64,000 bases of DNA from Terriglobia bacterium. Lineage in GTDB: Bacteria; Acidobacteriota; Terriglobia; Bryobacterales; Bryobacteraceae. The position numbers and the translations under genes were made by a program. Location of the stretch: assembly GCA_021325175.1 (NCBI GenBank), contig JAJPHS010000140.1:1-64000 (forward strand). Direction: 5' to 3'. Positions within the stretch are counted from its first letter, which is position 1. Each line of letters starts with the position of its first letter. The notes beneath the pieces are model-generated. The model was not told the DNA's origin. It searched no databases and was given only the letters and a program-made list of their open reading frames with translations. Positions 1 to 38,387 of this stretch are shown here, piece after piece.

Positions 1-311
1 AGATCCTCGTCGAAATCGTGCAGCTTGTGCAGATGCGCGGCGAGCGCGGGAATCTCGCGGCCCGAGGGCGTCCGCAGAAACATCTGATAGCCGCGGCTGA
101 CCAGCATCGCGATCTCGCCGCCGATCATCACCCCCGCTTTGCCGACCTTCACCGCGCCTTTGCCTGCATCCTCGACAATCGCGCCGCAACCGCCGCGCGT
201 GACCAGGGCGCGTCCGGGGGATTCGCGCATTACCTCGAATTTGAAGTCCTTGAGATTGGAGAGCCGCTCGTCGAACGTCGGAGTTTTCGGGGTCGCCCGG
301 CGAAAGAACAT
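1..311 (-). CDS. Unknown protein, partial (3' end beyond window)
   Basis: An open frame reads from an ATG at 309-311 to the window edge, giving 103 codons without a stop. The visible protein begins MFFRRATPKTPTFDERL and then reads LKDFKFEVMRESPGRALVTRGG, a short beta-rich stretch, and a region with MIGGEIAMLVSRGYQMF. No signal peptide, membrane helix or catalytic motif is visible. I do not recognise the family. It is transcribed divergently from glpK with only 21 bases between the two start codons. A perfect TATAAT on the minus strand (324-319) lies 7 bases before the ATG and there is no Shine-Dalgarno sequence, so a leaderless mRNA is likely. The reality of the gene rests on its clean start context and the codon-like composition of the frame. 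Confidence 0.65.
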   Translation of the reverse strand, partial: MFFRRATPKTPTFDERLSNLKDFKFEVMRESPGRALVTRGGCGAIVEDAGKGAVKVGKAGVMIGGEIAMLVSRGYQMFLRTPSGREIPALAAHLHKLHDFDED

Positions 312-318
312 AACACTC

Positions 319-326
319 ATTATAAT
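319..326. promoter_or_regulatory. Back-to-back -10 elements for glpK and its divergent neighbour
   Basis: The octamer ATTATAAT contains TATAAT on the plus strand (321-326) and TATAAT on the minus strand (324-319). The plus copy is 6 bases before the glpK GTG, and the minus copy is 7 bases before the divergent ATG. With a usual -10 to start-site distance, transcription would begin at or next to each start codon. No TTGACA-like -35 is obvious on either side. Confidence 0.6.
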
Positions 327-332
327 GCGTGA

Positions 333-1817
333 GTGCCATTTGTTATCGCTTTGGATGAAGGGACCACCAGCGCGCGCGCCGCGCTCTACAACGAAGAGGG
401 CCGCCGCGTGGCGGCGCAATCAGAACCGATCGAATGCTTTTATCCGCAGCCGGGCTGGGTGGAACAGGATGCGGAAGCCATCTGGCGGGCGCAGCTCGAC
501 GCCACCCGGCGGACGCTTGCCGCCGCCAACATAAGCGCGCGCGAGATCGCCGCCGTCGGCATTGCCAATCAACGCGAAACCACCATCGTCTGGGATAAAA
601 ACACGGGGCGGCCGGTCGCGCCCGCGATCGTATGGCAATGCCGCCGCACCGCCGCCTATTGCGATGCGCTGGCCCAGCGCGAAATGGTGCGGCGCAAAAC
701 CGGCCTGGTGATCGACGCTTATTTTTCGGCGAGCAAGATTCGCTGGCTGCTCGATCACGCCGGCGCGAGCCCGCGCGATCTTCTGTTCGGCAACGTCGAT
801 ACCTGGCTGATCTGGAAGCTTACCGGCGGGACCCATGTCACCGATCCGACCAACGCCTCCCGCACCATGCTGATGAATCTCGAATCAGGCGATTGGGATG
901 ACGAGCTTTTAAATCTCTTCGGCATTCCAGGCGAGATGATGCCGCGCATCGTCGCCTCCTCCGGCGTTTGCGGCACGGCGTTGGCGGAGCATCTGGGCGC
1001 CGAAATCCCGATCGCCGGAATCGCCGGAGATCAGCAAGCCGCGCTGTTCGGACAAGCCTGTTTCTCCCCCGGATTGTCCAAAAACACTTACGGCACGGGA
1101 TGTTTCGCATTAATGCACGCCGGCGCGCATGCGCCCGTTTCCCGGCACAGGCTTCTTGCCACTCGAGCCGCTTCGCCTGACCGGACGGCGCAATACGCGG
1201 TCGAGGGCAGCATCTTTATTGCGGGAGCCGCGGTGCAGTGGCTGCGCGATAAGCTGCAACTCATCTCCACCGCCGCGGAAAGCGAAGCGCTGGCGGCGTC
1301 CGTGCCGGATACCGGCGGAGCGTATCTGGTTCCGGCCTTTGTGGGATTGGGCGCGCCGTACTGGGATTCGTCGGCGCGAGGACTTTTCACCGGAATCACG
1401 GCCACCACCGATCGCGCCCGCCTGGTCCGCGCGACCCTGGAAAGCATCGCCTATCAAACGCGCGATCTGGTGGATGCAATGGAAGCCGACGCCGGTCAGA
1501 AGATCAAGGAGCTGCGCGTGGACGGCGGCGCCACGGCGAACAATTTTTTGATGCAGTTTCAGGCCGACATTTTGGGATGTCCCATCGTCCGGCCCGCGGA
1601 TACGGAGACGACAGCCTTAGGCGCCGCCTATTTAGCGGGCCTGGCGACGGGTTATTTCAAAAACATGGAAGAACTTTCGCGTTTCTGGCGAAGCGAGCGC
1701 GTTTTCCAGCCGCAAATGCCCGTGGACCGGCGCGAGGAATTATGGGCAGGCTGGAAACGCGCGGTCGCGCAGTGCCGCTTCGTTGGCTCCGAGCAGGCGC
1801 GCAAAACATCGCCCTAG
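333..1817 (+). CDS. glpK: Glycerol kinase
   Basis: This 494-residue protein has the usual length and layout of glycerol kinase, which phosphorylates glycerol to sn-glycerol-3-phosphate with ATP in the cytoplasm. The N-terminal FGGY phosphate-binding loop DEGTTS lies at residues 8-13. A GNVDTWLIWKLTGG motif and the TDPTNASRT segment of the sugar-kinase fold follow near residues 152-175. The C-terminal ATPase lobe carries DGGATANNFLMQFQADI near residue 398. The start is GTG with no ribosome binding site, 6 bases after a perfect TATAAT, so translation probably begins on a leaderless message. No glpF or glpD gene adjoins it, so the glycerol pathway is not clustered here. It could be another FGGY kinase, but the motif set fits GlpK well. 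Confidence 0.93.
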   Translation: MPFVIALDEGTTSARAALYNEEGRRVAAQSEPIECFYPQPGWVEQDAEAIWRAQLDATRRTLAAANISAREIAAVGIANQRETTIVWDKNTGRPVAPAIVWQCRRTAAYCDALAQREMVRRKTGLVIDAYFSASKIRWLLDHAGASPRDLLFGNVDTWLIWKLTGGTHVTDPTNASRTMLMNLESGDWDDELLNLFGIPGEMMPRIVASSGVCGTALAEHLGAEIPIAGIAGDQQAALFGQACFSPGLSKNTYGTGCFALMHAGAHAPVSRHRLLATRAASPDRTAQYAVEGSIFIAGAAVQWLRDKLQLISTAAESEALAASVPDTGGAYLVPAFVGLGAPYWDSSARGLFTGITATTDRARLVRATLESIAYQTRDLVDAMEADAGQKIKELRVDGGATANNFLMQFQADILGCPIVRPADTETTALGAAYLAGLATGYFKNMEELSRFWRSERVFQPQMPVDRREELWAGWKRAVAQCRFVGSEQARKTSP

Positions 1818-1836
1818 TGCCTTGATTCAGACACGC

Positions 1837-1858
1837 GCGGTTGTGCGCCTCGAACCGC
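1837..1858. terminator. Hairpin between convergent genes (candidate terminator)
   Basis: A perfect 6-bp stem (GCGGTT at 1837-1842 with AACCGC at 1853-1858) and a 10-base loop sits between the stops of glpK and the convergent PHP phosphatase gene. There is no T tract on either side, so intrinsic termination is uncertain. The rest of the 71-base gap shows nothing else. Confidence 0.3.
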
Positions 1859-1888
1859 AGAACGGGAGCCAGTGAAACCCTGAAGCGA

Positions 1889-2644
1889 TCATCGCCAAAT
1901 CTGATACCACTTCCTGGTCTCGCCGCGGGCGAACATTTCCATTGAGTTCACCGGCGCCCCATTGATGGCGGCGCGCGGGTTCGTCACGCACAGCAGATCG
2001 GCCAATTCGCGGCCGTAGCGCTTTTCGATCCAGGCGAACGCCTCCTCGAGCTTCGGCGGGCGATGTTGGCAATCGTGCGCGTCGCTGGCGATGAAGTGCG
2101 CCAGGCCACGGTCGATGAGCATCTCCGAAAATTCGCGGGCGCGGGGGCCGAAGCGGCCGAGCAGGCTCTGCGCCGTAAGCTGCACCCGCGCGCCGGATTC
2201 CACCCACTTCGCGATCTCGCCGATGCGCTGGCGCAGCAGGCCGTTGCGCTCCGGATGGGTCACGATCGGGACCATTCCGGCGTCCTGAAGGCGCGCGAAG
2301 ATTTCCGGCGTGTTCTTGAAGATGATCAAATCGGAAAACTCCACCAGCAGATAGCATTTCTGATTAATCGTGTACCTGGCCGGATTCGCGATGGCATCCT
2401 GAATGTTTTCGTAGCTCAGATGAAAATCGCAGCCGGAATAAACCCGCACGCCTTCGCCGGAAATTTCCTCCAGCCTCGCGCGAATTTTCTGCGGGTCGAA
2501 TTTGTATTTGAGGTTGGCGTGCGGCGTGGCGACCAGGTCCGTGGTGCCGCTCGCGCCGGCCATGCGAATCATGGCAAGGGATTCTTCGAGCGTTTTCGCG
2601 CCGTCGTCAACTCCGTAGAGGACGTGCGTGTGAATATCGATCAC
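1889..2644 (-). CDS. PHP-fold tyrosine phosphatase, CpsB/YwqE type
   Basis: The protein (251 residues from a GTG at 2644) begins MIDIHTHVLYGVDDG, the hallmark opening of CpsB/CapC/YwqE manganese-dependent tyrosine phosphatases, which dephosphorylate bacterial tyrosine kinases that control capsule export. ATPHAN and THPERN motifs supply further metal-binding histidines. I choose GTG 2644 because it overlaps the TGA of the upstream deacylase as GTGA and gives the normal family N-terminus. A GTG at 2665 would add seven residues. It is the third gene of a minus-strand run after a TPR protein and a D-amino-acid deacylase. No tyrosine kinase is adjacent. The only Wzc-like protein in the window, near 47-49 kb, has a degenerate kinase domain, so the substrate is unclear. 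It might act in general carbohydrate or phosphoester metabolism instead. Confidence 0.8.
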   Translation of the reverse strand: MIDIHTHVLYGVDDGAKTLEESLAMIRMAGASGTTDLVATPHANLKYKFDPQKIRARLEEISGEGVRVYSGCDFHLSYENIQDAIANPARYTINQKCYLLVEFSDLIIFKNTPEIFARLQDAGMVPIVTHPERNGLLRQRIGEIAKWVESGARVQLTAQSLLGRFGPRAREFSEMLIDRGLAHFIASDAHDCQHRPPKLEEAFAWIEKRYGRELADLLCVTNPRAAINGAPVNSMEMFARGETRKWYQIWR

Positions 2645-4299
2645 TTCTGGTGTCCCGGCCCCCACACGATTCGGCCGGGCTTGGCTCCCGTGACCACGCC
2701 GTTGTGGAGCACCGAGACGCCGTTGACGAACACTTCCTTGATCCCGGTCGAGATCTGATGCGGATTTTCATATGTCGCGCGATCGGCGATGGTCGCGGGA
2801 TCGAAAACGACCACGTCGGCGTAAAAACCCTCCTTCAGCAGCCCGCGATCCTGAATCGAAAGGCGATTCGCCGTCGCCGATGTCATCTTGCGCACCGCGT
2901 CTTCAAGCGTCAGCACGTGTTCCTCGCGGACATATTTCCCGAGGATGCGCGGGAAATTTCCGTAGGCGCGCGGATGCGCCAGACTGCGCGTGTTCGCCGG
3001 ATCGATGCCGGCCGAATCACTGCCGATCTTGATCCACGGCTGCTGGAGCTGGAGCTTCACGTTTTCCTCGCTGCCGATGAAAAACATCGTTTCGATGCGA
3101 GAATGCTCGGCGGAAATTAAATCGATGGCCGTCTCGGCCCAGTCCTTATGCAGCGCCGCGGCGATTTCCGAGAGGCGCTTGCCCTGATATTGGCGATATT
3201 CGGGCGAGACCAGGCGTAGAATCATCACGCCAGCCGGCGTCGATTCGCGGCAGATATTTTCCCAATCCCGCGGCGCCGCCATGGCTTCGTCGTGAATTTT
3301 TTGACGCGTCGCCGGATCTTTCAAATTTTCGAACAGCTTTCCGTCCGCGGCGGACCAGGGAGGCAGGCATGCCGTCAATCCCGTTCCTCCGGCGACATAG
3401 GGATACATGTCCGCGCTGATATCGATGCCGGCGCGGCGCGCTTCATCGATCCTGGCGATGGCCTGTTTCATCTTCGGCCAGTTCGCTTCCCCCGAAGCTT
3501 TCAAATGATAAATTTCAACCGGCACGCCACCGTCGCGGCCGATCTCGATCCCTTCCTCGATCGCCTCCAGCAAATGGTCGGACTCCGATCGCATGTGAGT
3601 GATGTAAACGCCACCGTACGGGGCCATCACCTTGGCGAGTTCGATAAGTTCGCGCGTGGTGGCGTATTCGCCGGGCGGATAGATCAGCGCCGACGCCATG
3701 CCGAACGCGCCATCTTCCATGGCTCGTTTAAGCGCGCCGCGCATTTCCTCCAGTTCCGCTTCGGTCGGCGCGCCCTGCGCCATGCCTTTGCCGTACATGC
3801 GTAGCGTGGCCGCGCCGGCGAACGATCCGAAATTGAGCGACGATCCGTGCTGCTGCATAGCTTCGAGCCAGTCGCGAAATCCGTGCGGGCCGGTGAAGCG
3901 CGAATCGAGCTTGCGCGCTTCCTCGGATTCGTTGGCGAGCGTTTTGTCGTTGGCCGGCGCGTCGGTGCCGCCTTCGCCCATGATTTCCGTGGTGATTCCC
4001 TGCGTCAGATGACTAATCAGCCGTCCGTCGCCGGTCAGCAACTGGACGCGCGACTGCCCCTGAATATCGATGAAGCCGGGCGAAACGACCATCCCCCGCG
4101 CGTCGATTTTCTGCCTTGCCGGCGCGCCCGCGAGCATCCCGCGCGGCGCGATTCGCGCGATGCGATCCCCGCGGATGCCCACATCGCCGTAGAACCATGG
4201 GTCGCCGGCGCCGTCAACGACGCGCCCGCCGGAGATTATGACATCATAAGTCTGCGCGGATGCGCACGCGCAGACGAGCAACAACAGCTTGAGCCGCAT
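2641..4299 (-). CDS. N-acyl-D-amino-acid deacylase family amidohydrolase
   Basis: This 552-residue protein belongs to the D-aminoacylase branch of the amidohydrolase superfamily, which removes acyl groups from N-acyl-D-amino acids. It opens with a short secretion signal (MRLKLLLLVCACASA). A SGGRVVDGAGDPWFYGDV segment follows, typical of the amidohydrolase N-terminal beta domain. The HLTQGITTEIMGEGG segment, the THMRSES metal site and EIYHLKASG near residues 235-270 follow the family pattern. The signal peptide suggests activity in the periplasm, perhaps on D-amino-acid conjugates from peptidoglycan. The ATG lies 6 bases after a TAAACT hexamer whose first three bases are the stop of the upstream TPR gene, and no ribosome binding site is visible. 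Its end overlaps the start of the PHP phosphatase gene. The exact D-amino-acid preference cannot be read from sequence. Confidence 0.85.
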   Translation of the reverse strand: MRLKLLLLVCACASAQTYDVIISGGRVVDGAGDPWFYGDVGIRGDRIARIAPRGMLAGAPARQKIDARGMVVSPGFIDIQGQSRVQLLTGDGRLISHLTQGITTEIMGEGGTDAPANDKTLANESEEARKLDSRFTGPHGFRDWLEAMQQHGSSLNFGSFAGAATLRMYGKGMAQGAPTEAELEEMRGALKRAMEDGAFGMASALIYPPGEYATTRELIELAKVMAPYGGVYITHMRSESDHLLEAIEEGIEIGRDGGVPVEIYHLKASGEANWPKMKQAIARIDEARRAGIDISADMYPYVAGGTGLTACLPPWSAADGKLFENLKDPATRQKIHDEAMAAPRDWENICRESTPAGVMILRLVSPEYRQYQGKRLSEIAAALHKDWAETAIDLISAEHSRIETMFFIGSEENVKLQLQQPWIKIGSDSAGIDPANTRSLAHPRAYGNFPRILGKYVREEHVLTLEDAVRKMTSATANRLSIQDRGLLKEGFYADVVVFDPATIADRATYENPHQISTGIKEVFVNGVSVLHNGVVTGAKPGRIVWGPGHQK

Positions 4300-4308
4300 A
4301 AAAGGAGT

Positions 4309-5127
4309 TTACTGCTCGCCCAGCTTCTTGCGCGCGAATGGAATTGCATACGCCGCCGGGGGATTGTGGCCGCGCGCCGAAGCGGCTTTGCGATAGTATT
4401 CCATCGCTTTGTCCCGGTCGCCGAGTTTTTCGTATGTCTGCGCGATCATGCAGGTGATAAACGGATCCTGCTGGGCTTTCTGAAGGTCCTCGAGGGCGGT
4501 TTTGTAATCGCCCAGGTAGAAAGCGACATATCCGGTGAGATATCGAAAGAACGGTTCCTGCTCCGAGCGCAGTTCCGACATTCGATCGAGAGCGGCGCGA
4601 GCCGCCGCGACGTGCTTCTCTGCCTCCGCCCGATTCCCGCGCCGCGCCGCAATCCGCGCTTGCGCATGTTCCCAGCGAAAATCCCACAAAGCGCGCCGGT
4701 CCGGCGATATGTTCGGCTCCTTGAGGCCGAAGTCGTGGCCCTTACGATACCATTCCGCCGCCGCGTCCAAATCGCCCGAGTCGATGCAAACGCGGCCGGC
4801 TTCATCGGCCATCTCGCCTTCCTGGTAGAAGGCGGTCTGCGGCTGATCTTTCTCGCGGGTGGCCCAATAATCGATCACCATCTGCTCGTATTCGCCTGTC
4901 TTCCGGCAATTACCTTCGAACGCCCAGGACATGGCCATGGCGCGTTGTGCATTGGCCTTCGCCGCTGCTGAGGTCGCGGTCTCGATCGCTTTTTGAAAGA
5001 CCGCGCGGGCCTGTACCCGCTTGCCTTCAAGATCCAGTTGAACGCCCTCCGATGCGGGCCCGCGGCCGGGGAATTGCGCCAACAAAACATAGGGCGCGAG
5101 AAGAACAGCAGCAACCACAAAGCGCAT
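4309..5127 (-). CDS. Secreted tetratricopeptide-repeat protein
   Basis: The predicted product has 272 residues, beginning MRFVVAAVLLAPYVLLAQFPGRG, a clear signal peptide. The rest is helical, with TPR-like units, for example GYVAFYLGDYKTALEDLQKAQ followed by IAQTYEKLGDRDKAMEYYRKA near the C-terminus. TPR arrays mediate protein-protein contacts; no enzymatic motif is present. I place the start at 5127 rather than at an in-frame ATG 132 bases upstream, because the upstream extension is Arg-rich and unlike a signal sequence. A GATAAT hexamer lies 7 bases before the chosen ATG. It is followed by the deacylase gene after 9 bases and probably forms an operon with it. Confidence 0.75.
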   Translation of the reverse strand: MRFVVAAVLLAPYVLLAQFPGRGPASEGVQLDLEGKRVQARAVFQKAIETATSAAAKANAQRAMAMSWAFEGNCRKTGEYEQMVIDYWATREKDQPQTAFYQEGEMADEAGRVCIDSGDLDAAAEWYRKGHDFGLKEPNISPDRRALWDFRWEHAQARIAARRGNRAEAEKHVAAARAALDRMSELRSEQEPFFRYLTGYVAFYLGDYKTALEDLQKAQQDPFITCMIAQTYEKLGDRDKAMEYYRKAASARGHNPPAAYAIPFARKKLGEQ

Positions 5128-5188
5128 CCACTCAATTATCGCACCGGCCCTCGTAAGCTGGCACGGCTTTCGCCGCAACAGAGGGGCG

Positions 5189-6703
5189 CTACAGCTTTGC
5201 CGACGGCGCAAACGACGGCGGCTTGCGGGCTTTGGTCGCCTGCTCAAACGCGAACGCATATTTGATCAACTTCACTTCGCTGCGCGCCGAGCCGAAGAAC
5301 GAAATTCCCACCGGCAGTCCGAACACGTATCCCGCCGGAACGGTTACGTGCGGGTACCCCGCGACCGCGGCGGGCATCGACGAGCCGCCGGTGAAGTGAT
5401 CGCCTAGCACATAATCGGTCAGCCACGCCGGACCGTCCGTCGGCGCCACCAGCGCATCGAGCGCCAGCCGGGTCATCGCCGAATCGATCCCCTCCTGCCG
5501 CGCCAGCCGATTCAGCCGCGAAACCAGATCACGATAGGCTTTGCTCGTCACCGGACCTTTTTCCTGCGCCTTCAGCATCTGATCCTGGCCGAACCAGGGC
5601 ATCTCGCGATCGCGGTTTTTTTCGTTGAACGCGATCACCTCTTGCAGGCTCTTGACGGGCCCGCCGCGCGCTTCCAGATACGCGTTTAAATCCGCCTTGA
5701 ACTCGTAAAGCATCGCCTCATTTTCAAGTTCGCCGATTCGCGAATAGGTGGGGATCATGGCCGGATCGACAATTTCCGCGCCCAACTGCTTCATGGTGTC
5801 GATGGCGGATTGCATCAGCCGATCCACGCGATCGTTAAAGCCGAAAATTTGCCGCGCGATCCCCAGGCGCGCCCCGCGCAACCCGCCAGGATCGAGCGCC
5901 TGGCCGTAACTTGCCCCGGCCAATGCCTCAAGAAGCAGCGCCGCGTCGGCCACCGTTCGCGCCATCGGACCGGCCGTATCCTGGCGGCGCGAAACGGGTA
6001 CGATGCCCGCGCCGGGAATCAATCCTACCGTCGGTTTAATCCCTACAATGCCGTTAATCGACGATGGAGAAACGATCGATCCATCCGTTTCCGTGCCGAC
6101 GCCGGCGGCGCAGAGATTGGCGGCGACCGCCGCGGCGGTTCCGGAACTCGATCCCGATGGATTGCGGTCGAGCGCGTAGGGATTTCGCGTCTGGCCGCCG
6201 CGTCCGCTCCATCCGCTGGTCGAATGGGTCGAGCGGAAATTCGCCCACTCGCTGAGATTCGTTTTCCCGAGAACGATCGCGCCCGCCGCGCGTAATCGCT
6301 CCACCAGCGCGGCGTCTTTCAAAGCGCGGCTCGCCAGCGCCAGCGATCCGGCCGAGGTCATCATCTTGTCGCCGGTATCGATATTGTCTTTAATCAGAAT
6401 CGGGATGCCGTGCAGCGGCCCGCGCGGGCCTTTTTCCTTGCGCTCGCGATCGAGCGCGGCGGCGATCGCGGGCGCGTCGGGATTCATTTCGATGACGGCG
6501 TTAACGCGCGGGCCGGATTTGTCGATTTTTTGAATGCGCTCGGCGTAGATTTCAACCAGGCGCTCGGAAGTAATCTGCGATGCGGCCAGCGCGGTTTGCA
6601 GATCGGCCAGGGCCGGGTCTTCGAAGGTCCACTGAGCGGAGCTGAGCTGGTCGAGCGCGAGAGCAACCGCACCCATCTTCAGAATTTCACGGCGGGAGGG
6701 CAT
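5189..6703 (-). CDS. Exported amidase (amidase-signature family)
   Basis: A 504-residue amidase-signature hydrolase related to GatA-type amidases, which cleave carbon-nitrogen amide bonds. The catalytic Ser-cisSer-Lys triad is visible: Lys105 in HGIPILIKDNID, the glycine/serine-rich NPSGSSSGTAAAVAA loop with the cis-Ser at about 185, and the nucleophile Ser at about 209 in GTETDGSI. The N-terminus (SRREILKMGAVALAL) resembles a short Tat-type signal, so the enzyme is probably exported. No gatB or gatC adjoins it, which argues against a role in tRNA amidation. Substrates of such lone exported amidases are usually unknown. A TACCAT hexamer 8 bases before the ATG and the lack of a ribosome binding site suggest a leaderless message. 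Confidence 0.88.
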   Translation of the reverse strand: MPSRREILKMGAVALALDQLSSAQWTFEDPALADLQTALAASQITSERLVEIYAERIQKIDKSGPRVNAVIEMNPDAPAIAAALDRERKEKGPRGPLHGIPILIKDNIDTGDKMMTSAGSLALASRALKDAALVERLRAAGAIVLGKTNLSEWANFRSTHSTSGWSGRGGQTRNPYALDRNPSGSSSGTAAAVAANLCAAGVGTETDGSIVSPSSINGIVGIKPTVGLIPGAGIVPVSRRQDTAGPMARTVADAALLLEALAGASYGQALDPGGLRGARLGIARQIFGFNDRVDRLMQSAIDTMKQLGAEIVDPAMIPTYSRIGELENEAMLYEFKADLNAYLEARGGPVKSLQEVIAFNEKNRDREMPWFGQDQMLKAQEKGPVTSKAYRDLVSRLNRLARQEGIDSAMTRLALDALVAPTDGPAWLTDYVLGDHFTGGSSMPAAVAGYPHVTVPAGYVFGLPVGISFFGSARSEVKLIKYAFAFEQATKARKPPSFAPSAKL

Positions 6704-6791
6704 TGCAATCTATGGTATCCCGGCAGTGATCCGCCGGCCATTCCAAAGCCGCCGGCGGAGTTCGCTATCCTCACTTTGAAGCGTCACAACC

Positions 6792-8180: not shown

Positions 8181-8351
8181 GCTGCTTGATGCATTACAAG
8201 AGCAGGGCGTTTGAATCGTATCGCGATCCGGCCTCGCGCACTGGTTGAGGATGGATCTGTTCGAGCGCGAGTTTGGCGGTTGGTTTGTTTCGGCGGCGCT
8301 GTGGGCTCGCGTTAGGTAGACTGTACTATGTTCGTTTGGCTCGAAGTCAGG

Positions 8352-19573: not shown

Positions 19574-19579
19574 ATTGTA
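19574..19579 (-). promoter_or_regulatory. -10 element of the tol-pal operon
   Basis: TACAAT on the minus strand ends 9 bases before the GTG of tolQ, inside an AT-rich 110-base divergent gap. No clear -35 is seen. Confidence 0.5.
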
Positions 19580-19660: not shown

Positions 19661-19666
19661 TATAAT
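19661..19666 (+). promoter_or_regulatory. -10 element of recN (leaderless)
   Basis: A perfect TATAAT ends 8 bases before the recN GTG at 19675. No Shine-Dalgarno sequence can fit, so translation probably starts at the 5' end of the mRNA. Confidence 0.6.
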
Positions 19667-28859: not shown

Positions 28860-28865
28860 TACATT
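28860..28865 (+). promoter_or_regulatory. -10 element of the SprT-like gene
   Basis: TACATT ends 8 bases before ATG 28874. A TTGAAC 20 bases upstream could act as a -35 with a long spacer. No ribosome binding site is visible. Confidence 0.45.
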
Positions 28866-30098: not shown

Positions 30099-32924
30099 GT
30101 GAGGAACCTGCGTTTGAGCCTGGCGTTTGTTGCCGCGCTGGTGGCGGTGGAGCGCGTGTGCGCGCAGGAATCCGTGAACAATGCAACCATCAGCGGGCGG
30201 GTGGTCGATCCGAGCGGAGCGGTGATTGCCGGCGCTCAGGTCACGGCTCGCCAGATGGAAACGAATCTCAAGGCAACCACCACGACGGATGGTGAAGGGC
30301 GCTTCCGCTTTCCTTATCTCCGCGTCGGCCGGTATGAACTCACGATTCACAAGGAGGGCTTCGTCGATGCGACGCGCGATCTTACGCTTTTGGCCGGATC
30401 GGCGTTCGAGGTTCCCGTCTCTATGGCCATCGCCGCGGCGCAAGAAAGTGTCGCCGTCAGTTCCGAAGCCGGGCTTATCGAAACGGCGCGTACGCAGGTG
30501 GCGGGCACGGTTTCGCAGACCGAAATCTCGGAAGTGCCGCTCAACGGCCGCAATTTTCTCGATTTGGCGCTGTTCATTCCGGGAGTTTCTCCGACCAACA
30601 CCGCCTCCAACCAGATGTTCGCCGAGACGTCGGCGGTTCCCGGACGGGGAATTTCGGTGGACAGCCAGCGAAATTTCTCCAACAGCTTCCTTGTCGACGG
30701 GCTTTCCAATAACGACGACGCAGCGGGCCTTACTGGGGCCTCCTACGGCGTCGATACGATCCAGGAGTTTCAGGTGGTGACCTCGGGCGGCCAGGCCGAG
30801 TTCGGGCGCGCGCTCGGCGGCTACATCAATGTCGTCACTCGCAGCGGGACCAACACGCTGCACGGCGATCTCTACGGGTATTTTCGCAACCAGCGCCTCA
30901 ACGCCGATAATGCGCTTTCTCACACCGCGCTCCCGTTGACCCAAGCGCAGTTTGGCGCGAGCGCAGACGGCCCGATCCGCCGCGACCGTACTTTTTATTT
31001 CGCGAATTTCGAGCAGCGCGAGCTCAATCAATCCGGCCTGACCACCATCACAGCGGCGAATCTCCTCGCCATTAACGCCAAGCTTGCGGCCGTCGGATAT
31101 CCCGGCCCGCTGGTTTCGACGGGAATTTATCCGAACCCGATCCACAGTTCGAATGGGTTCGCCAAAGCCGACCATCAGTTCAATCCGAAAGATCAGTTCA
31201 GCGTTCGCTACAGCGTATATCACGTGACCAGCATCAATTCGCGCGGGGCAGGCGGGTTGAGCGCTGCGACGGCTTCGGCGAATCTGGACGACACGGATCA
31301 GGTTTTGGCGGCCAGCAATGTCGCCACCCTCTCTCCACGGATCGTGAACGAAACCCGGGGGCAGTTCTGGAACAGCGCGCTGAGCGCGCCGCCGTCCGAT
31401 CCGATCGGCCCGGCGGTCTCCATCTCTGGGGTCGCTTCCTTCGGCACCTTGTCCGTGTCCCCGACGGCGCGCCGCAACAAGCTGGGCGAACTGGTCGACA
31501 ATCTTTCTTATCAAGCTGGCGGGCACGCGATTCGCGCCGGCGCCGATTTTCTCTACAACGACGATACGATTGTTTTCCCCCGTTCCAATCGCGGGAGCTA
31601 TTCGTTCTCCTCGCTCGCAAATTTCCTGGCCGGAGTTTATAACACCTCCGGATTTACGCAGACGTTCGCAAATTCGACCGTTTTTCAGACGAATCCGAAT
31701 ATCGGTTTTTACGCGCAGGATGAGTGGACCGTGAACCGCCGCCTGACGCTCAACGCCGGCGTCCGCTACGATCTTCAGTTCCTGAAAACCATCGCGACGG
31801 ACACCCACAACGTTTCTCCGCGAGCCGGCTTCGCCTGGACCCCGTTTGCGGCGCGAAAAACGGTCATTCGCGGCGGATTCGGGCTGTTTTACGATCGGCT
31901 GCCGCTGCGCGCGCTGGCCAACGCCCTGCTTTCCGCAAACAACACCACCGATCCGGCCGAGCTGAGCCAGATCACCGTGAGCCTTTCGCCTGGGCAAGCG
32001 GGCGCGCCTTTGTTCCCGAACATCCTGAACGGCCTTACCTTGCCGCCTGGCGTGCTGTTCAATTTCACGACCATGGACCGGCATATTCAAAACCCTTACT
32101 CCGAGCAGGGGAGTTTCGAGATCGAGCACCAGCTTGGCTCTGGCAGCACCATTGAGGCCGGTTATCAACATCTGCGCGGCCTGCACCTGGTTCTTTCCGT
32201 CAATCAGAACGTTCCGGGCTGCATCGCCTCGGGAAACAACAACGGATGCCGGCCGAATCCGGCATACGGCAACGATAACCAGTATTCATCGCTGGGTGAT
32301 TCGCGCTACGACGGCCTGCACGTCTCGTTTGTGCAAAGGCCGGCTGGATGGGGCAGCTATCGCGTTTCCTACACCTATTCGAAGGCGCTGGATGATGTCG
32401 GCGAATTTTTCTTCAGCTCGCCCATCGACAATTTCGATATCTGGCGGGATTATGGGCGTTCCGACGACGATCAGCGCCATCGTCTTGTGTTTGACGGGAC
32501 CATTCATAGTCCTGTCGGGGAGGCGCGCTCGGCGTGGGAACGCCTCAGTCATGGTTTTCAATTGACCGCCGTCGTCCAGTATTATTCGGCGCTGCCGTTC
32601 AACATCACGACCGGAGCGAACACGATTCAAGGAACCCCGGCCCGCCCGATGATCAACGGCGCCTTCATCAATCGTAACGCCGGCACGGGATTCGATTTCT
32701 TTAGTGTTAACGCCCGCCTCGGCCGCGCTTTCCATTTCGGCGAAAAACTTCGAATTGCCGCGCTGGCCGAAGGATTCAACCTGACCAACCACGTGAACGG
32801 CGTAACCCTCAACGGCGTGTTCGGAACAGGAAGTTATCCGTCGAATCCATTGCCAACCTTCAGACAGACCACGGCGGTGGGAGACCCGAGAGCGTTCCAG
32901 CTTGCGCTCCGGCTCGCGTTTTGA
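30099..32924 (+). CDS. TonB-dependent receptor, Oar-like, with carboxypeptidase-like N-domain
   Basis: A 941-residue outer-membrane receptor. After a signal peptide comes a carboxypeptidase-regulatory-like beta sandwich (TISGRVVDPSGAVIAGAQVTA, residues about 28-110). The plug domain (EVPLNGRNFLDLALFIPGVSP near 147, then DGLSNNDDAAGLTGASYGVD) and a 22-stranded-type barrel follow, ending in LALRLAF with the terminal aromatic expected by the Bam machinery. This architecture is the dominant TonB receptor type in Solibacter-like Acidobacteriota. The ligand is not evident. The neighbouring small Cys/His protein and BNR protein make metal or a metal chelate one candidate, and glycans or peptides others. 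Barrel segments contain NERG-like and SYTYSKALDD motifs common to the family. Confidence 0.92.
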   Translation: MRNLRLSLAFVAALVAVERVCAQESVNNATISGRVVDPSGAVIAGAQVTARQMETNLKATTTTDGEGRFRFPYLRVGRYELTIHKEGFVDATRDLTLLAGSAFEVPVSMAIAAAQESVAVSSEAGLIETARTQVAGTVSQTEISEVPLNGRNFLDLALFIPGVSPTNTASNQMFAETSAVPGRGISVDSQRNFSNSFLVDGLSNNDDAAGLTGASYGVDTIQEFQVVTSGGQAEFGRALGGYINVVTRSGTNTLHGDLYGYFRNQRLNADNALSHTALPLTQAQFGASADGPIRRDRTFYFANFEQRELNQSGLTTITAANLLAINAKLAAVGYPGPLVSTGIYPNPIHSSNGFAKADHQFNPKDQFSVRYSVYHVTSINSRGAGGLSAATASANLDDTDQVLAASNVATLSPRIVNETRGQFWNSALSAPPSDPIGPAVSISGVASFGTLSVSPTARRNKLGELVDNLSYQAGGHAIRAGADFLYNDDTIVFPRSNRGSYSFSSLANFLAGVYNTSGFTQTFANSTVFQTNPNIGFYAQDEWTVNRRLTLNAGVRYDLQFLKTIATDTHNVSPRAGFAWTPFAARKTVIRGGFGLFYDRLPLRALANALLSANNTTDPAELSQITVSLSPGQAGAPLFPNILNGLTLPPGVLFNFTTMDRHIQNPYSEQGSFEIEHQLGSGSTIEAGYQHLRGLHLVLSVNQNVPGCIASGNNNGCRPNPAYGNDNQYSSLGDSRYDGLHVSFVQRPAGWGSYRVSYTYSKALDDVGEFFFSSPIDNFDIWRDYGRSDDDQRHRLVFDGTIHSPVGEARSAWERLSHGFQLTAVVQYYSALPFNITTGANTIQGTPARPMINGAFINRNAGTGFDFFSVNARLGRAFHFGEKLRIAALAEGFNLTNHVNGVTLNGVFGTGSYPSNPLPTFRQTTAVGDPRAFQLALRLAF

Positions 32925-32937
32925 GTAAGAAGTTTTG

Positions 32938-32953
32938 AGTAAGTAAGTAAGTA
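32938..32953. repeat. Tetranucleotide repeat (AGTA)4 before the BNR gene
   Basis: Four perfect AGTA units lie between the receptor stop and the ribosome binding site of the next gene. A longer duplication, TTTTGAGTAAG, also occurs twice (32919-32929 and 32933-32943), suggesting slippage in this 42-base gap. The AAGGAG that serves the next gene is at 32956-32961. Confidence 0.7.
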
Positions 32954-32966
32954 AGAAGGAGACGAG

Positions 32967-34031
32967 ATGAATTTATTGCTTGCCGCGATGTTTGCGATTC
33001 AAATCGGGCCGAGCGGAACGGATGCGCCGGCGAAGCAGCCTCAAATGGCGGTCCGCGGCTCCATGGTGGCGCTCACCTTCGGCGCGGGGAACTCGATCTA
33101 TTTCAGCTTGTCCACCGATTCCGGACGAACCTTCTCCGAGGCGAAGAGGGTGGTTGACGCGCCGGTGATTCCGCTCACGCGCCACCGCGGACCGCGAATC
33201 GCCTTCGCCGGCGATGCGATCGTGATCACCGCGGTTTGGGGCGGGACAAATGGCGAGGGTCCGCATGCTCACGGGCTGCCGCCGGATGGCGATCTGTTCA
33301 CGTTGAGATCGGCCGATATGGGCAAGACATGGTCCAGGCCCGCGGTCATCAACGACGTTCCGGGCGCGGCCACGGAAGGATTGCACGCGCTGGCCTCCGA
33401 CGGCAAGGCGAAGTTGTTCGCCGCGTGGCTCGACAATCGCGGGGGGAAAGGAAAAAAGCTTTATGGCTCGCAATCGAGCGATGGCGGAGTTACGTGGTCG
33501 AAGAACGTTCTGATTTATGAATCGCCCTCCGGAACGATTTGCGAATGCTGCCACCCTTCGCTTGCCATCGAGCCGAACGGGGAAATTCTGGTGATGTGGC
33601 GCAACTGGCTGGACGGCAGCCGCGATATGTATCTGGCGCGGTCGCGCGATGGGGTTCGGTTCTCGACGGCGGGGAAATTAGGTGCCGGCACATGGAAACT
33701 GAACGCCTGCCCGATGGATGGCGGAGGAATCGCGGTCGCCGGGGGCAAAATCGCGACCGCATGGCGGCGGGAACGTCAAATTTTCCTCGCCAGCCCCGGC
33801 GCGACGGAAATGCAAATTGGCGAAGGAACGGACGTGGCGATCGCCGGGAGCGGGGCGGGATTTTACGCGGCGTGGTCGACCGCGGCAGGGATCCGAGTTT
33901 TGCGGCCGGGCAGTTCCGATCCTGCGCTGCTCGCGCCGCGAGGTTCGTTTCCGAGTCTCATTGCGCTTCCCGGCGGCGCCGTTGTTGCGTGGGAAGACAG
34001 CGGCAAAATTGCTGTCGAACAATTACGCTAA
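32967..34031 (+). CDS. BNR/sialidase-like beta-propeller protein with CECCH motif
   Basis: A 354-residue protein with a weak signal sequence and a six-bladed sialidase-like propeller. Asp-box (BNR) repeats are visible: STDSGRTFS near residue 50, SADMGKTWS near 115 and SSDGGVTWS near 170. Catalytic sialidase residues (the Arg triad and Tyr/Glu pair) are not obvious, so it may be a binding protein. An unusual TICECCHPS segment places Cys192, Cys194, Cys195 and His196 in one loop, which could bind metal or form disulfides. It follows the TonB-dependent receptor by 42 bases and has AAGGAG 5 bases before the ATG, so co-expression is likely. It ends in a 4-base convergent overlap with the P5C dehydrogenase gene. 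Confidence 0.75.
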   Translation: MNLLLAAMFAIQIGPSGTDAPAKQPQMAVRGSMVALTFGAGNSIYFSLSTDSGRTFSEAKRVVDAPVIPLTRHRGPRIAFAGDAIVITAVWGGTNGEGPHAHGLPPDGDLFTLRSADMGKTWSRPAVINDVPGAATEGLHALASDGKAKLFAAWLDNRGGKGKKLYGSQSSDGGVTWSKNVLIYESPSGTICECCHPSLAIEPNGEILVMWRNWLDGSRDMYLARSRDGVRFSTAGKLGAGTWKLNACPMDGGGIAVAGGKIATAWRRERQIFLASPGATEMQIGEGTDVAIAGSGAGFYAAWSTAAGIRVLRPGSSDPALLAPRGSFPSLIALPGGAVVAWEDSGKIAVEQLR

Positions 34032-35599
34032 ATTTTCTCGCCGATCGATTTGGGCTGGAGGAATTGCAGCAGATAATCCGGCCCTCCCGCTTTCGAATCG
34101 GTCCCCGACATATTGAAGCCGCCGAAAGGATGCGCGCCGACCATCGCTCCGGTGCATTTCCGGTTGATGTACAGGTTGCCGACGAAGAATTCGTCCTTCG
34201 CGCGGCGAATTTTTTCGGGATTTCGCGTGTAAACGGCGCCCGTTAAGCCGTATTCGCTGTCGTTGGCGAGCGCCAGGGCGTGATCGAAATCGCGCGCCTT
34301 AGTCACCGCGAGCACGGGTCCGAAAATTTCTTCCTGGAAAATGCGCGCTTTCGAATCGACGTCGGCGATGACTGTGGGCTGGACGAAATAGCCGTCGCCA
34401 GGAGCCGCATCGCCGCCGGCAACCAAACGGCCTTCGCGCTTGCCGGTCTCGATGTAATCGAGAATGGTTTTCTTGGCGCCGGCGCTGATCACCGGCCCCA
34501 TGTAATTCTCCGGTTCTTCCGGAGGACCCACGGTCAGCGCCGCGACCTTGGCCTGAAGCTTCTGGAGAAATTCGTCATAAACGGACTGATCGACAATCGC
34601 GCGCGAACAAGCCGAGCATTTTTGTCCCTGATATCCGTAGGCCGATTGCACGACTCCAGCCACCGCCGCGTCGAGATCGGCTTCCCGATCGATGATGATG
34701 GCGTCTTTGCCGCCCATTTCCGCCACCACGCGCTTGATCCAGATCTGGCCTTTGCGCGGCTTGGCGGCCAGCTCATTGATGCGCAGTCCGACGTCGCGCG
34801 AGCCGGTGAAGGAGATGAAACGGGTCTTGGGATGCTCCACCAGCAGGTCGCCAACGATCGATCCGCTGCCGGTGCACAGGGCGAAGCTGCGCGGCGGGAA
34901 TCCGGCCTCAAGCAGCACTTCGGCCAGCTTCTGCGCGATGGTCGGCGTTTCGCTGGAAGGCTTGATCACGATGGTGTTGCCCGTCACCAGCGCGGCGGCG
35001 CTCATTCCGGTCATGATCGCCAGCGGAAAGTTCCAGGGTGGAATGATAATGCCCGCGCCGAGCGGGAGATAGACCATTTCGTCGCGCTCGCCGGGCATCT
35101 GCACAAGCTGCGGCGGGGACGCGAAGCGCTGCATCTGCCGCGCGTAATATTCACAGAAATCGATGGCTTCGCTGACGTCGGCGTCGGCTTCGGGCCATGT
35201 TTTTCCGGCCTCACAAACCAGCCACGCATCGAATTCGAGCTTTCTTTCGCGGATGATCGAGGCAGCGCGAACCACCAGATTCACGCGCGTTTCAACCGGC
35301 GTGCGGCTCCATTCGGGGAAGTACGCATGCACGTCCTCGATTGCCTTGGCGGCCAGCGCGGCGTTGGCCCGGTGGTGCCGGCCGACGATCTCGGAAGGAC
35401 GCGCGGGGTTGACGCTGCTCAACAGATCGCCTGTTTTATGGCGCCCGCCGGCGATCCACAATTCGTATTCGCGGCCGAATTCCGCGCGCACTTTTTTGAG
35501 CGCCGCCCGCGCCGCCTGGATCTCTTCGGGCCTGGAAAAGGCGCAGACAGGTTCATTCGTAAACGCGGCCAGCGGCCGGGACACAGCAGTAGTCGTCAT
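34028..35599 (-). CDS. pruA: L-glutamate gamma-semialdehyde (P5C) dehydrogenase
   Basis: A 523-residue aldehyde dehydrogenase of the RocA/PruA group, oxidising glutamate semialdehyde to glutamate with NAD in proline catabolism. GIIIPPWNFPLAIMTGM and FTGSRDVGLRI are NAD-site motifs. The general base Glu lies in VVAEMGGKDA near 289, and the catalytic Cys is in GYQGQKCSACSR near 325. The C-terminal SGTDSKAGGPDYL motif is characteristic of P5C dehydrogenases. No proline dehydrogenase gene is adjacent, so the two steps are not fused or clustered here. A GGAGAA sequence precedes the ATG at about 9 bases. Confidence 0.88.
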   Translation of the reverse strand: MTTTAVSRPLAAFTNEPVCAFSRPEEIQAARAALKKVRAEFGREYELWIAGGRHKTGDLLSSVNPARPSEIVGRHHRANAALAAKAIEDVHAYFPEWSRTPVETRVNLVVRAASIIRERKLEFDAWLVCEAGKTWPEADADVSEAIDFCEYYARQMQRFASPPQLVQMPGERDEMVYLPLGAGIIIPPWNFPLAIMTGMSAAALVTGNTIVIKPSSETPTIAQKLAEVLLEAGFPPRSFALCTGSGSIVGDLLVEHPKTRFISFTGSRDVGLRINELAAKPRKGQIWIKRVVAEMGGKDAIIIDREADLDAAVAGVVQSAYGYQGQKCSACSRAIVDQSVYDEFLQKLQAKVAALTVGPPEEPENYMGPVISAGAKKTILDYIETGKREGRLVAGGDAAPGDGYFVQPTVIADVDSKARIFQEEIFGPVLAVTKARDFDHALALANDSEYGLTGAVYTRNPEKIRRAKDEFFVGNLYINRKCTGAMVGAHPFGGFNMSGTDSKAGGPDYLLQFLQPKSIGEKI

Positions 35600-35626
35600 G
35601 ATAAGTTCTCCGGAAATGTAGCCGTT

Positions 35627-35884
35627 TCAGCCTTCGACAATACGCCGGCCGCGCTCGATCAGATCCGCCGCCTCATCGGCCACGCGCAAACCTTTTTCGT
35701 AGAGTTCGCGGCCTTTTTCCATCCATTCACGGCCGGATTCGGAGAGCGCTTCGCGGCCCTCGCGCGTTTTGCGCTTGATGGTGCGGCGCATTTCCTTGCC
35801 GGACTGCGGCGCATAAAGAAGAGCGACGGTAGCGCCGATGGCCGCCCCCGCCACAAACCACACGAACTTTCCGTTATCTTCCAT
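35627..35884 (-). CDS. YtxH-domain small membrane protein
   Basis: An 85-residue protein with one membrane helix near residues 7-24 (FVWFVAGAAIGATVALLYAP). It is followed by the characteristic SGKEMRRTIKRK motif and a charged amphipathic helix. This is the YtxH/GvpP-like layout, associated with general stress in Firmicutes; the molecular role is unknown. TAGACT lies 6 bases before the ATG and GGAG overlaps that gap, so either leaderless or leadered initiation is possible. It is divergent from the DUF2007 gene with 31 bases between starts. Confidence 0.8.
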   Translation of the reverse strand: MEDNGKFVWFVAGAAIGATVALLYAPQSGKEMRRTIKRKTREGREALSESGREWMEKGRELYEKGLRVADEAADLIERGRRIVEG

Positions 35885-35890
35885 ATCTCC

Positions 35891-35908
35891 AGTCTAACGC
35901 GCTAAGCT
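35891..35908. promoter_or_regulatory. Divergent -10 elements for the YtxH-like and DUF2007 genes
   Basis: TAGACT on the minus strand (35896-35891) is 6 bases from the YtxH-like ATG. TAAGCT on the plus strand (35903-35908) is 7 bases from the DUF2007 ATG. Only six bases separate the two hexamers. Confidence 0.45.
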
Positions 35909-35915
35909 CGGATTG

Positions 35916-36413
35916 ATGGACGAACTAGTAACGGTTTTTCGATCGCCGGACGAGAGCGCAGAACAGGATGCCAGCGCGATCGCGGAACTTCTGCGCGAGG
36001 CTGGCATTTCGCCGGTCGTGCTCGACGATGAAGCCCCCGGCGTTCCCGAAGGCGTCTGGGAAGTGCGCGTGCCCGCCGCCGATAGCGCCCGCGCGGAACA
36101 GTTAATCGCCGCCTGGCGCGCGCCTGAAGATGAGTTCTCCAGTCCCGACCGTTCACCCGAGTTGGATTTCATCACGGTGTACAGCTCCGGCGACGGCGGC
36201 GAATCGGAAAGCGAGGCGTTGACCATCCAGAGCCTGCTCAAGGCGAACGGAATCGACGCAGAGATCGCCGGCGTGCGCGGCCCGTTTCCCAATCTGGCCT
36301 GGGAGGTGCGCGTCGCCAAGGAGCACGCCCTGGAAGCGCGGCGGATTATCGAGGAAGCGCGGGCGGCTGGACCCTCCGCCGCCGAAGAGGCCGAAGCCGA
36401 GACAGAAACATAA
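35916..36413 (+). CDS. Tandem DUF2007 (putative signal-transducing) protein
   Basis: A 165-residue acidic cytoplasmic protein with two DUF2007-like units. The first has LVTVFRSPDESAEQDASAIAELL then WEVRVPAADSARAEQLI. The second has FITVYSSGDGGESESEALTIQSLL then WEVRVAKEHALEARRII. The repeat is clear by eye, at residues about 4-68 and 84-150. DUF2007 domains occur near PII-like and membrane proteins, but their ligand is not known. I use ATG 35916 rather than the in-frame TTG immediately before it. TAAGCT 7 bases upstream suggests leaderless translation. The last 68 bases overlap the convergent PEP-CTERM gene. Confidence 0.75.
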   Translation: MDELVTVFRSPDESAEQDASAIAELLREAGISPVVLDDEAPGVPEGVWEVRVPAADSARAEQLIAAWRAPEDEFSSPDRSPELDFITVYSSGDGGESESEALTIQSLLKANGIDAEIAGVRGPFPNLAWEVRVAKEHALEARRIIEEARAAGPSAAEEAEAETET

Positions 36414-37464
36414 GACCCAAACCCGCCAGCGCCAGCGCGACCGTCGCGGGTTCAGGAGCGGAGGCGGCGTCGAGGGAAGAATCCGGCGCTGGCGGATCGA
36501 CCAATAAAACCGCGTGCTCGACGCCGTTCAGCATGGCGGTTCCGGCGATCTCGTTGCTGTCGTTGATCGCGTATGCTGCGGTGATGGTCCAGCCGGGCGT
36601 TCCGAGCAGCGAGTTCAGATCGATCAGCGCGCCGTTCTCGTACAGAAACGCGTGCGTCATAGCGTTGCCGGCGACATACGAATATCCGACCACGTCGCCG
36701 GCGGAGTTGATCCCGTAGGCGTAGCTGCTGTTGCCGCCGAGGGTTCCCAAGTTGATCATCACGCCGCCGGCGTCGAGAAATGCGCTCGAATATCCCGAAA
36801 ATGTCTGCGAATCTCCCACCACTTCCCCGGCATCATTGATTCCCATCGCATAACTGTTGGCCCCGCCCAGTGTTCCGAGAATCGTGAAGCCGGTCTGCGG
36901 CGACCACACGAAACCGCGAAACACGCCTCCGATTTGGCCGTATCCCGCCACTTCGCCCCGATCGTTGATCCCGTATGCCGCTGACCAGCTTCCGCCCGGC
37001 AGCGTCCCCAAATCCGTGACCACGCCGTTTTCTGTGATGAAGGCATTTCCCTGACCGTTGGAGGTCATCATGCCCGCGACCTGGCCGGAGTCGCTTATCG
37101 CCATCGCGTACGACCCCGCGCCGGCGATCGCCTGATTGGCCGAGCCGGTCCAGACGGTCGCATACGCTTCGCCGTTCACATACGCGGTTCCCGCGACCTG
37201 TCCCGATGCGTTCACCCCGCTGGCCGTCCCCTCGCTGGCGTTGCTGTTACTGGTCAGATCGGTCAGGCCCGAGCCGTTGCTCACAAAGGCGTGCTGGTAG
37301 CCGTAGGCGGTCGTCGCCGCGCCCGCGACGAGGCCGTTCGAACTCAGCCCGAACGCCTGCGCGCTGGTCCCGCCGAGCGTTCCCAGATCGTAGACGTTAT
37401 AGATCGGCCCGGCCGCGGCCAAGCTCGCCGCAAATAAAATCGAAGCGAAGCGGATCGAATTCAT
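36346..37464 (-). CDS. HAF-repeat protein with PEP-CTERM sorting signal
   Basis: A 372-residue secreted protein. A signal peptide (MNSIRFASILFAASLAAAG) is followed by about seven HAF-type repeats, for example YNVYDLGTLGGTSAQAFGLS, TDLGTLPGGSWSAAYGIND and INLGTLGGNSSYAYGIN. The C-terminus has the tripartite PEP-CTERM signal: the PEP motif in SAPEPATVALA, a hydrophobic helix, and a basic tail RLRPLRRRRV. Such proteins are cleaved and anchored by exosortase, usually along with exopolysaccharide export. No exosortase gene is present in the window, although an exopolysaccharide cluster lies about 8 kb away. Its coding end overlaps the convergent DUF2007 gene by 68 bases, within the basic tail. Confidence 0.85.
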   Translation of the reverse strand: MNSIRFASILFAASLAAAGPIYNVYDLGTLGGTSAQAFGLSSNGLVAGAATTAYGYQHAFVSNGSGLTDLTSNSNASEGTASGVNASGQVAGTAYVNGEAYATVWTGSANQAIAGAGSYAMAISDSGQVAGMMTSNGQGNAFITENGVVTDLGTLPGGSWSAAYGINDRGEVAGYGQIGGVFRGFVWSPQTGFTILGTLGGANSYAMGINDAGEVVGDSQTFSGYSSAFLDAGGVMINLGTLGGNSSYAYGINSAGDVVGYSYVAGNAMTHAFLYENGALIDLNSLLGTPGWTITAAYAINDSNEIAGTAMLNGVEHAVLLVDPPAPDSSLDAASAPEPATVALALAGLGLMFLSRLRPLRRRRVQPPALPR

Positions 37465-37540
37465 AAATGTGATTCGATTATGCCCGGCAATGTCCCGCGA
37501 TTTAAAGATTCGAGGATACTATATTCGCTGGTACCACGTC

Positions 37541-37570
37541 GCTACCCCATGAATAAAAGAGGGGTAAAGC
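37541..37570 (-). terminator. Hairpin directly after bcp (candidate terminator)
   Basis: GCTACCCC (37541-37548) pairs with GGGGTAAAGC (37561-37570), with one bulged A and a 12-base AT-rich loop, starting immediately after the bcp stop codon. No T run follows on the minus strand. The rest of the 106-base gap up to the PEP-CTERM gene shows nothing else clear. Confidence 0.4.
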
Positions 37571-38014
37571 TTAGCGAAGAGCCTCTAAAACCTGCTCGGC
37601 GTGCCCGTCTGGCTTCACCTTGGAGAAAATTTTTTCGATTTTTCCATCCGCGCCGATCAGGAAGGTGGTTCGCTCGACTCCCATGTATTTGCGCCCGTAC
37701 ATATTTTTCTCTTTCCAGACGCCGTACGCCTCGGCGATGGAGTGATCGGGATCGGGCACGAAGGTGAACTCGAATCCGTACTTCGCCGCGAATTTTTTCT
37801 GAGCCGCTGCTTCATCCGGCGACACGCCGACAATCTCCGCCTGGAGTTTGGCAAACCGGCGCGAGGCGTCGCGAAATTCGCAGGCCTCCCGGGTGCATCC
37901 CGGCGTATCGGACTTGGGAAAAAAGAACAGCACCACAGGCTTGCCGCGGAGATTCGCAAGCTGAAAGGAGCCGGAGCGAATTTCCGGCGCGAGATCGCCA
38001 ATCCCTGGATTCAT
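37571..38014 (-). CDS. bcp: Thioredoxin-dependent thiol peroxidase (bacterioferritin comigratory protein)
   Basis: A 147-residue peroxiredoxin of the Bcp/PrxQ class that reduces hydroperoxides. The active-site region SDTPGCTREACEFRD places the peroxidatic cysteine at Cys40 and the resolving cysteine at Cys45, the atypical 2-Cys spacing of this class. There is no signal peptide, so it is cytoplasmic. I choose ATG 38014. The longer in-frame start at 38065 would run over the promoter and start of the divergent cytochrome gene. TACAAT lies 8 bases before the ATG and there is no ribosome binding site. Confidence 0.92.
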   Translation of the reverse strand: MNPGIGDLAPEIRSGSFQLANLRGKPVVLFFFPKSDTPGCTREACEFRDASRRFAKLQAEIVGVSPDEAAAQKKFAAKYGFEFTFVPDPDHSIAEAYGVWKEKNMYGRKYMGVERTTFLIGADGKIEKIFSKVKPDGHAEQVLEALR

Positions 38015-38022
38015 CTCAGAAA

Positions 38023-38032
38023 ATTGTAAACT
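38023..38032. promoter_or_regulatory. Overlapping divergent -10 elements for bcp and cytochrome c
   Basis: ATTGTAAACT holds TACAAT on the minus strand (38028-38023) and TAAACT on the plus strand (38027-38032), overlapping by two bases. The gaps to the start codons are 8 bases (bcp) and 7 bases (cytochrome c). Both transcripts would be leaderless, and the two promoters should compete for polymerase. Confidence 0.55.
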
Positions 38033-38039
38033 AAACAAT

Positions 38040-38387
38040 ATGCGAATTTTGAGCCACCTCCGCACGACTCTGATCGCCGCCGCCTGCTTTGCGATGATTG
38101 CCGTTGGACCGAACCTGCTCGGTCAGGATAAAGGCGACGCGGCGAAGGGAAAAGAAGTTTTCGACTCGAATTGTTCGGTATGCCACAACGCCGATAGCAC
38201 GGAAAAGAAAATGGGGCCGGGCCTGAAGGGGCTTTTCAAGCGATCCAAACTGGCCAATGGCAAGCCGATGAATGAAGCGAACGTTCGCGCGCAGATCAAC
38301 GAGGGTGGCGGCGGCATGCCGGCCTACAGCGACATGCTGAGCGCGGAAGAAAAAGACAATCTGATCGCGTATTTGAAGACCCTGTAG
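38040..38387 (+). CDS. Secreted class I cytochrome c
   Basis: A 115-residue mono-heme cytochrome c with a signal peptide ending near residue 28 (AMIAVGPNLLGQ). The CSVCH heme site is at residues 45-49, and a probable distal Met ligand is in GGMPAYSDM near residue 98. The GKEVFDSNC lead-in and final EEKDNLIAYLKTL helix match small soluble electron carriers. It is divergent from the peroxiredoxin bcp and just upstream of tRNA-Glu and the succinate dehydrogenase operon. Its partner oxidase is not encoded here. Confidence 0.88.
   Translation: MRILSHLRTTLIAAACFAMIAVGPNLLGQDKGDAAKGKEVFDSNCSVCHNADSTEKKMGPGLKGLFKRSKLANGKPMNEANVRAQINEGGGGMPAYSDMLSAEEKDNLIAYLKTL

Follow-up and report, generated by a model that had tools for sequence, protein, structure and literature searches.

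The closest described systems to the gene starts considered here are the leaderless genes of Zheng et al. (2011), in which a TANNNT hexamer some 12 bases ahead of the gene start is interpreted as the -10 box (PMC3160421). Such genes were reported there in three of three Acidobacteria genomes, with a mean of 13.3% (9.7–19.4). Two-way bacterial promoters are also relevant, being described in the available passages as near-symmetric -10 boxes that overlap on the two strands, with starts 7–25 bases apart (PMC10268837, PMC12825309). A large leaderless class has been established by 5'-end mapping in Mycobacterium tuberculosis, and TANNNT is counted 12 times in the text of that report (PMC3898074). 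The present analysis concerns a stretch of 64,000 bases from a Terriglobia bacterium of the Bryobacterales (the window, G000:C35:1-64000), with a GC content of 57–66% in 4-kb steps, which belongs to an assembly of 4.26 Mb in 178 contigs that is 94% complete (G000, the own genome). Twelve gene starts of the window had been singled out in a first-pass annotation for an A/T-rich hexamer just upstream. We think that these hexamers are very probably -10 elements placed so close to the start codon that the messenger RNAs would be leaderless or nearly so, and that some divergent gene pairs may share one such element in both directions.

According to the first-pass annotation, the twelve starts have the hexamer at 6–9 bases and mostly lack a Shine-Dalgarno (SD) sequence. 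The second part holds without exception, as SD tetramers (GGAG, GAGG or AGGA, ending 3–12 bases before the start) are present in none of the twelve; SD-like starts also occur within the window, e.g., before 30099 and 32967. The first part holds with two reservations. TANNNT at a spacer of 6–9 bases precedes 11 of the 12 starts, the exception being the TPR gene (ATG 5127, minus strand), whose GATAAT (5135..5140) does not fit the motif. Moreover, the TAAACT (4306..4311, minus strand) before the deacylase-like ATG 4299 opens, read as 4311-4306, with the TAA that terminates the TPR gene (4309..5127), so it marks an operon junction and is no evidence of a promoter. Both starts were discounted.

The TANNNT signature at starts is real. 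It was counted on about 952 kb of the 4.26 Mb, window included, divided into a first sample of 570 kb and held-out contigs of 382 kb. Start calling relied on codon statistics, with a script blind to upstream sequence, and the background was the same motif at ten other 4-base offsets, plus internal in-frame ATG/GTG codons. In the first sample the motif stands at spacers 6–9 in 69 of 413 genes, the other offsets averaging 14.9 and reaching 20 at most, and it precedes 79 of 7046 internal codons; the counts at spacers 5, 6, 7, 8, 9, and 10 are 0, 24, 12, 17, 18, and 3. The held-out contigs repeat this strong enrichment with 39 of 285 genes (mean 8.4, maximum 14), and both samples combined give 108 of 698 against about 23 expected, an excess of about 12%. 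Applied to E. coli K-12 (250 kb), the same script detects no enrichment (4 of 170, mean 10.7). The first-pass annotation was thus right that the spacing is hard to ascribe to chance, and its expectation of enrichment at -7 to -15 on the genome scale is borne out on the portion sampled. Among 43 annotated genes in one 50-kb stretch of E. coli the script regained 34 stops and only 19 exact starts, which makes these rates approximate; misplaced starts have probably diluted them. A count free of gene calls was made on the whole own genome by looking for TATAAT followed by ATG within 1–24 bases; among the matches listed (100 of 135), spacers 6–9 account for 32, spacers 1–5 for 8, and spacers 10–24 for 60.

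The composition of the hexamer was examined at unselected positions in 165 TA-led genes from the own genome and the genus. Position 4 is A in 54% and position 5 is A or C in 79%, and a G is found two bases 5' of the hexamer in 52% against a background of 29%, which points to an extended -10 form; by these features the hexamer is a probable -10 element. Of the 69 TA-led genes of the first sample, 2 have an SD tetramer, compared to 77 of the 344 others, and the cytochrome c orthologues described below are found in both states behind one box, which supports the two coexisting initiation classes proposed in the first-pass annotation. A 16S rRNA, sought in order to read its anti-SD end, had no match in the own assembly.

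We consider it highly probable that housekeeping-sigma promoters, with the hexamers as their -10 elements, fire at the start codon or 1–3 bases before it. RNA polymerase would begin at that place, the messenger would be leaderless or almost leaderless, and the ribosome would initiate without an SD sequence. When two such genes lie back to back, their -10 boxes could overlap, and a gap of some 20–30 bases might accommodate both promoters and leave no space for leaders. At the level of the DNA, the motif, its spacing, the lack of SD, the conservation, and the changed start distance behind one box are directly readable; from them we infer the transcription start, the sigma factor, and the mode of ribosome initiation.

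The bcp gene (ATG 38014, minus strand) and its divergent cytochrome c neighbour (ATG 38040, plus strand) provide the most informative case. The candidate two-way -10 box between them, ATTGTAAACT (38023..38032, both strands), is kept across the genus and consists of TACAAT for bcp (38028-38023, minus strand, spacer 8) and TAAACT for cytochrome c (38027-38032, plus strand, spacer 7), the two hexamers having TA in common. Thirty bcp loci were fetched, and 21 of them were tallied, leaving outside the tally nine from more distant genomes (L098-L106); the genus genomes G002, G016, and G017 gave weak bcp matches and no locus. TANNNT stands at spacer 6–9 in 21 of 21 loci. Five of these have no cytochrome c partner nearby, leaving 16 with the own one included, and in two of the 16 a choice was made between two in-frame start codons (GTG at 26 over ATG at 38 in L081; ATG at 25 over GTG at 19 in L092). 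The shared box is kept in all 16 loci with a partner. In 12 of them both starts lie 6–9 bases from the box, the divergent start codons are 23–26 bases apart on overlapping -10 boxes, and the cytochrome c TANNNT is 6–8 bases from its start with no SD tetramer near. The other four retain the box with the cytochrome c start 23–58 bases away from it and have an SD-like sequence, which we read as GGAG five bases before the start in three loci and as AGAGGT eleven bases before it in one. We read this locus as a natural switch from leaderless to leadered initiation behind what appears to be one promoter. The bcp tree implies at least two changes of state, with poor support. In the nine distant loci the shared TACAAT box was not seen; by our own reading, L102 has TANNNT at spacer 7.

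Two side observations concern the same gene. The bcp orthologue of L079 (G015:C456) is interrupted by an in-frame TGA after about 39 residues, yet its promoter box and its pairing with cytochrome c are preserved. In the bcp-like loci L104, L105, and L106, from another family, TATAGT is found about 10 bases before the ATG, possibly as a short-leader form of the same promoter.

Six of the twelve named starts form three back-to-back pairs, with 21 (311/333), 31 (35884/35916), and 25 (38014/38040) bases between start codons. The first pair joins a gene of unknown function (ATG 311, minus strand) and glpK (GTG 333, plus strand). Overlapping -10 boxes on both strands are present at 319..326 as the palindrome ATTATAAT, a putative two-way box that gives TATAAT to glpK (321-326, plus strand, spacer 6) and TATAAT to the unknown gene (324-319, minus strand, spacer 7); the starts would be 22 bases apart if RNA begins at the start codons, and the pair also occurs in G012 and G015. 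At 38023-38032, where the boxes overlap as well, the distance would be 26 bases on the same supposition, which about agrees with the 7–25 bases of two-way promoters. In the third pair the boxes lie apart within 35891-35908: TAGACT (35891..35896, minus strand, spacer 6) before the YtxH-like ATG 35884, and TAAGCT (35903..35908, plus strand, spacer 7) before the DUF2007 ATG 35916. This pair is kept in G012 and in G004, where the gap is 43 bases and, by our own reading, TANNNT stands 6–7 bases from the start on both sides; the arrangement is not kept in L119, L120, and L122.

Divergent gaps of 1–50 bases in the own and genus samples have motifs on both sides in 4 of 28 pairs against 0.38 expected from shuffles, and on one side in 13 against 4.5. 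In the own genome, 13 of 32 genes at divergent gaps of up to 50 bases have the motif in the first sample and 0 of 4 in the held-out contigs. Short divergent gaps were also considered as a genome-wide hallmark and rejected: 15 of 60 divergent pairs of the first sample are at most 50 bases apart, but only 1 of 44 held out, so no genome-wide rate is claimed. The corresponding counts are 6 of 40 and 6 of 39 in the two genus samples and 0 of 33 in another family. We lean, with little more than even confidence, towards the view that leaderless initiation allows divergent genes to become joined head to head around a single two-way -10 box, with both promoters held in some 16–45 bases that would lead to the two start codons without any untranslated RNA. 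Orthologues would then move out of or into this arrangement when the distance to the start changes and an SD sequence is gained or lost, the box itself staying, as bcp and cytochrome c seem to have done across the genus.

Conservation can also be followed in recN (GTG 19675, plus strand), whose TATAAT (19661..19666, spacer 8) is kept among recN loci: it stands at spacer 6–9 in 16 of 25 Bryobacterales loci, the window included, and at exactly 8 in 14. No TATAAT was found in L034 and L040 among these 25 loci, nor in five other acidobacterial loci (L042-L046). The nearest recN among named genomes is 85% identical and comes from a Terriglobia metagenome-assembled genome (MAG), and close loci are mostly labelled Bryobacterales, Bryobacteraceae, or Acidobacteria. 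Two very Bryobacterales-like recN loci, L027 and L040, are recorded as Bordetella parapertussis (MAG) and Nevskia soli, respectively, names that look wrong. For glpK, TATAAT is 5–6 bases from the GTG in the own genome, G012, G015, and G017, and was not seen in the five more distant loci compared. In the own genome and in its close relative G012 alike, the contig opens exactly 332 bases before the glpK start, as if both assemblies were broken at the same base.

The signature was also counted in relatives. The second genus sample has the motif in 38 of 283 genes against a background of 9.8, and a sample from another family in 18 of 234 against 6.0. Over 101 genomes of the class, TATAAT is found 6–8 bases before ATG 2412 times, compared to 1461 at 19–21 bases, and the nearer count is the larger in 88 of them; one family of three genomes shows no excess (85 and 91, summed). 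Control sets that have too few genes to carry weight gave 4 of 56 against 0.4 in Chloroflexi, 2 of 49 against 1.4 in other Acidobacteria, and 3 of 46 against 7.8 in Firmicutes, Chlamydiae, and Fusobacteria.

Several results weigh against initiation at the very end of the messenger as a general explanation. The first genus sample is weakly enriched (19 of 300 against 10.8), and the own-genome TATAAT count is borderline (34 at 6–8 bases before ATG and 19 at 19–21, p 0.053). No clear preference was found for a -35 element, matches to TTGACA at five or six positions occurring in 5.4% of cases and in 2.1% of controls. For the 12 cytochrome c starts of leaderless type, duplex energies with the anti-SD range from -0.1 to -6.6, the three values of -6.6 coming from a GGAG upstream of the box. 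Finally, six of the 25 Bryobacterales loci have the recN box at spacers 10–14, which suggests that part of the messengers may carry a short leader instead of none. This last result, together with recN boxes at about 18–19 bases in two more loci by our own reading (TATAAT at about 19 in L023) and the TATAGT some 10 bases before the bcp-like start in L104-L106, favours an explanation in which the hexamers are -10 boxes, and in which a more upstream transcription start or a more distant box leaves leaders of some 3–13 bases that still matter. With spacers of 6–9, the usual distance from a -10 box to the transcription start has the RNA begin at the start codon or no more than about three bases from it. 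Against short leaders as the rule, the counts are sharp at spacers 6–9 and drop to 3 at spacer 10, and we regard this explanation as unlikely.

Unstructured A/T-rich regions aid initiation in some bacteria, and the hexamers might be such SD-free ribosome-binding regions within longer leaders instead of promoters, which would account for the lack of SD in TA-led genes. We hold this to be very improbable. The hexamer is a fixed one, with the extended -10 G and an A at position 4, whereas six other permuted A/T hexamers are less enriched at that place (7–20 genes, against 45 for TANNNT). Besides, few genes at same-strand gaps of up to 15 bases have the motif (7 of 108 in the first sample, 3 of 62 held out), and the start of cytochrome c shifts with respect to a box that remains in place. 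The idea that the hexamers were picked by chance from many starts, or come from TAA and TAG stops near starts, is less credible still: it stands for two of the twelve starts (the deacylase, and TPR, which does not fit), but the held-out enrichment refutes it for the full set. The orthologue conservation speaks against it too, as does the excess at divergent genes, which have no upstream stop there.

Three further named starts complete the set: TACCAT (6712..6717, minus strand, spacer 8) precedes the amidase ATG 6703 (Pfam Amidase), TACAAT (19574..19579, minus strand, spacer 9) the tolQ-like GTG 19564 (Pfam MotA_ExbB), and TACATT (28860..28865, plus strand, spacer 8) the SprT-like ATG 28874 (Pfam SprT-like). 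Pfam matches agree in kind with the gene names (FGGY kinase, amidohydrolase, TPR, amidase, MotA/TolQ/ExbB, SprT-like, YtxH, DUF2007, AhpC-TSA, cytochrome c, and RecF/RecN/SMC). No Pfam match was obtained for the 103-residue piece of the unknown gene at 311, whose N-terminus recurs in G012 and G015. As a separate observation, genes at same-strand gaps of 16–60 bases are often TA-led (10 of 55 and, held out, 17 of 61), which would be expected if many genes that look like operon members were served by their own leaderless promoters.

These results add gene-level evidence that a large and little-studied soil phylum may use leaderless and SD-led starts side by side. They also bear on start annotation, as exemplified by glpK, whose start was set by the coding-only caller at 351 and not at 333. 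Moreover, bcp and cytochrome c offer a natural experiment: sixteen orthologues have one promoter box in front of starts of either the leaderless type or the leadered one, so that a leader's effect could be examined with the promoter held constant.

In open-licence PMC text we found no paper that joins leaderless divergent pairs with a common -10 box, and none on leaderless genes with Terriglobus. The starts described here resemble the TA-led acidobacterial genes of Zheng et al. in the motif distance of about 12 bases and in frequency, the own-genome excess of about 12% being close to their mean of 13.3%. Where the available passages of that work give percentages by phylum, we describe single genes, their conservation among orthologues, and a probable switch in an uncultured Bryobacterales genome (PMC3160421). 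The large leaderless class of M. tuberculosis is alike, differing in phylum and in having mapped 5' ends (PMC3898074). Two-way promoters have overlapping boxes in common with the pairs of the window, whose starts would be 22 and 26 bases apart if RNA begins at the start codons. The two-way promoters come from enteric bacteria, with mapped 5' ends and a mode of 18 bases, and the available passages do not mention leaderless pairs; unlike them, the pairs described here are deduced from sequence, and both start codons would lie at the RNA starts (PMC10268837, PMC12825309). The leaderless signature itself is well supported and already in print for Acidobacteria, and what is added is the putative head-to-head leaderless pair with its conserved two-way box and its apparent switch.

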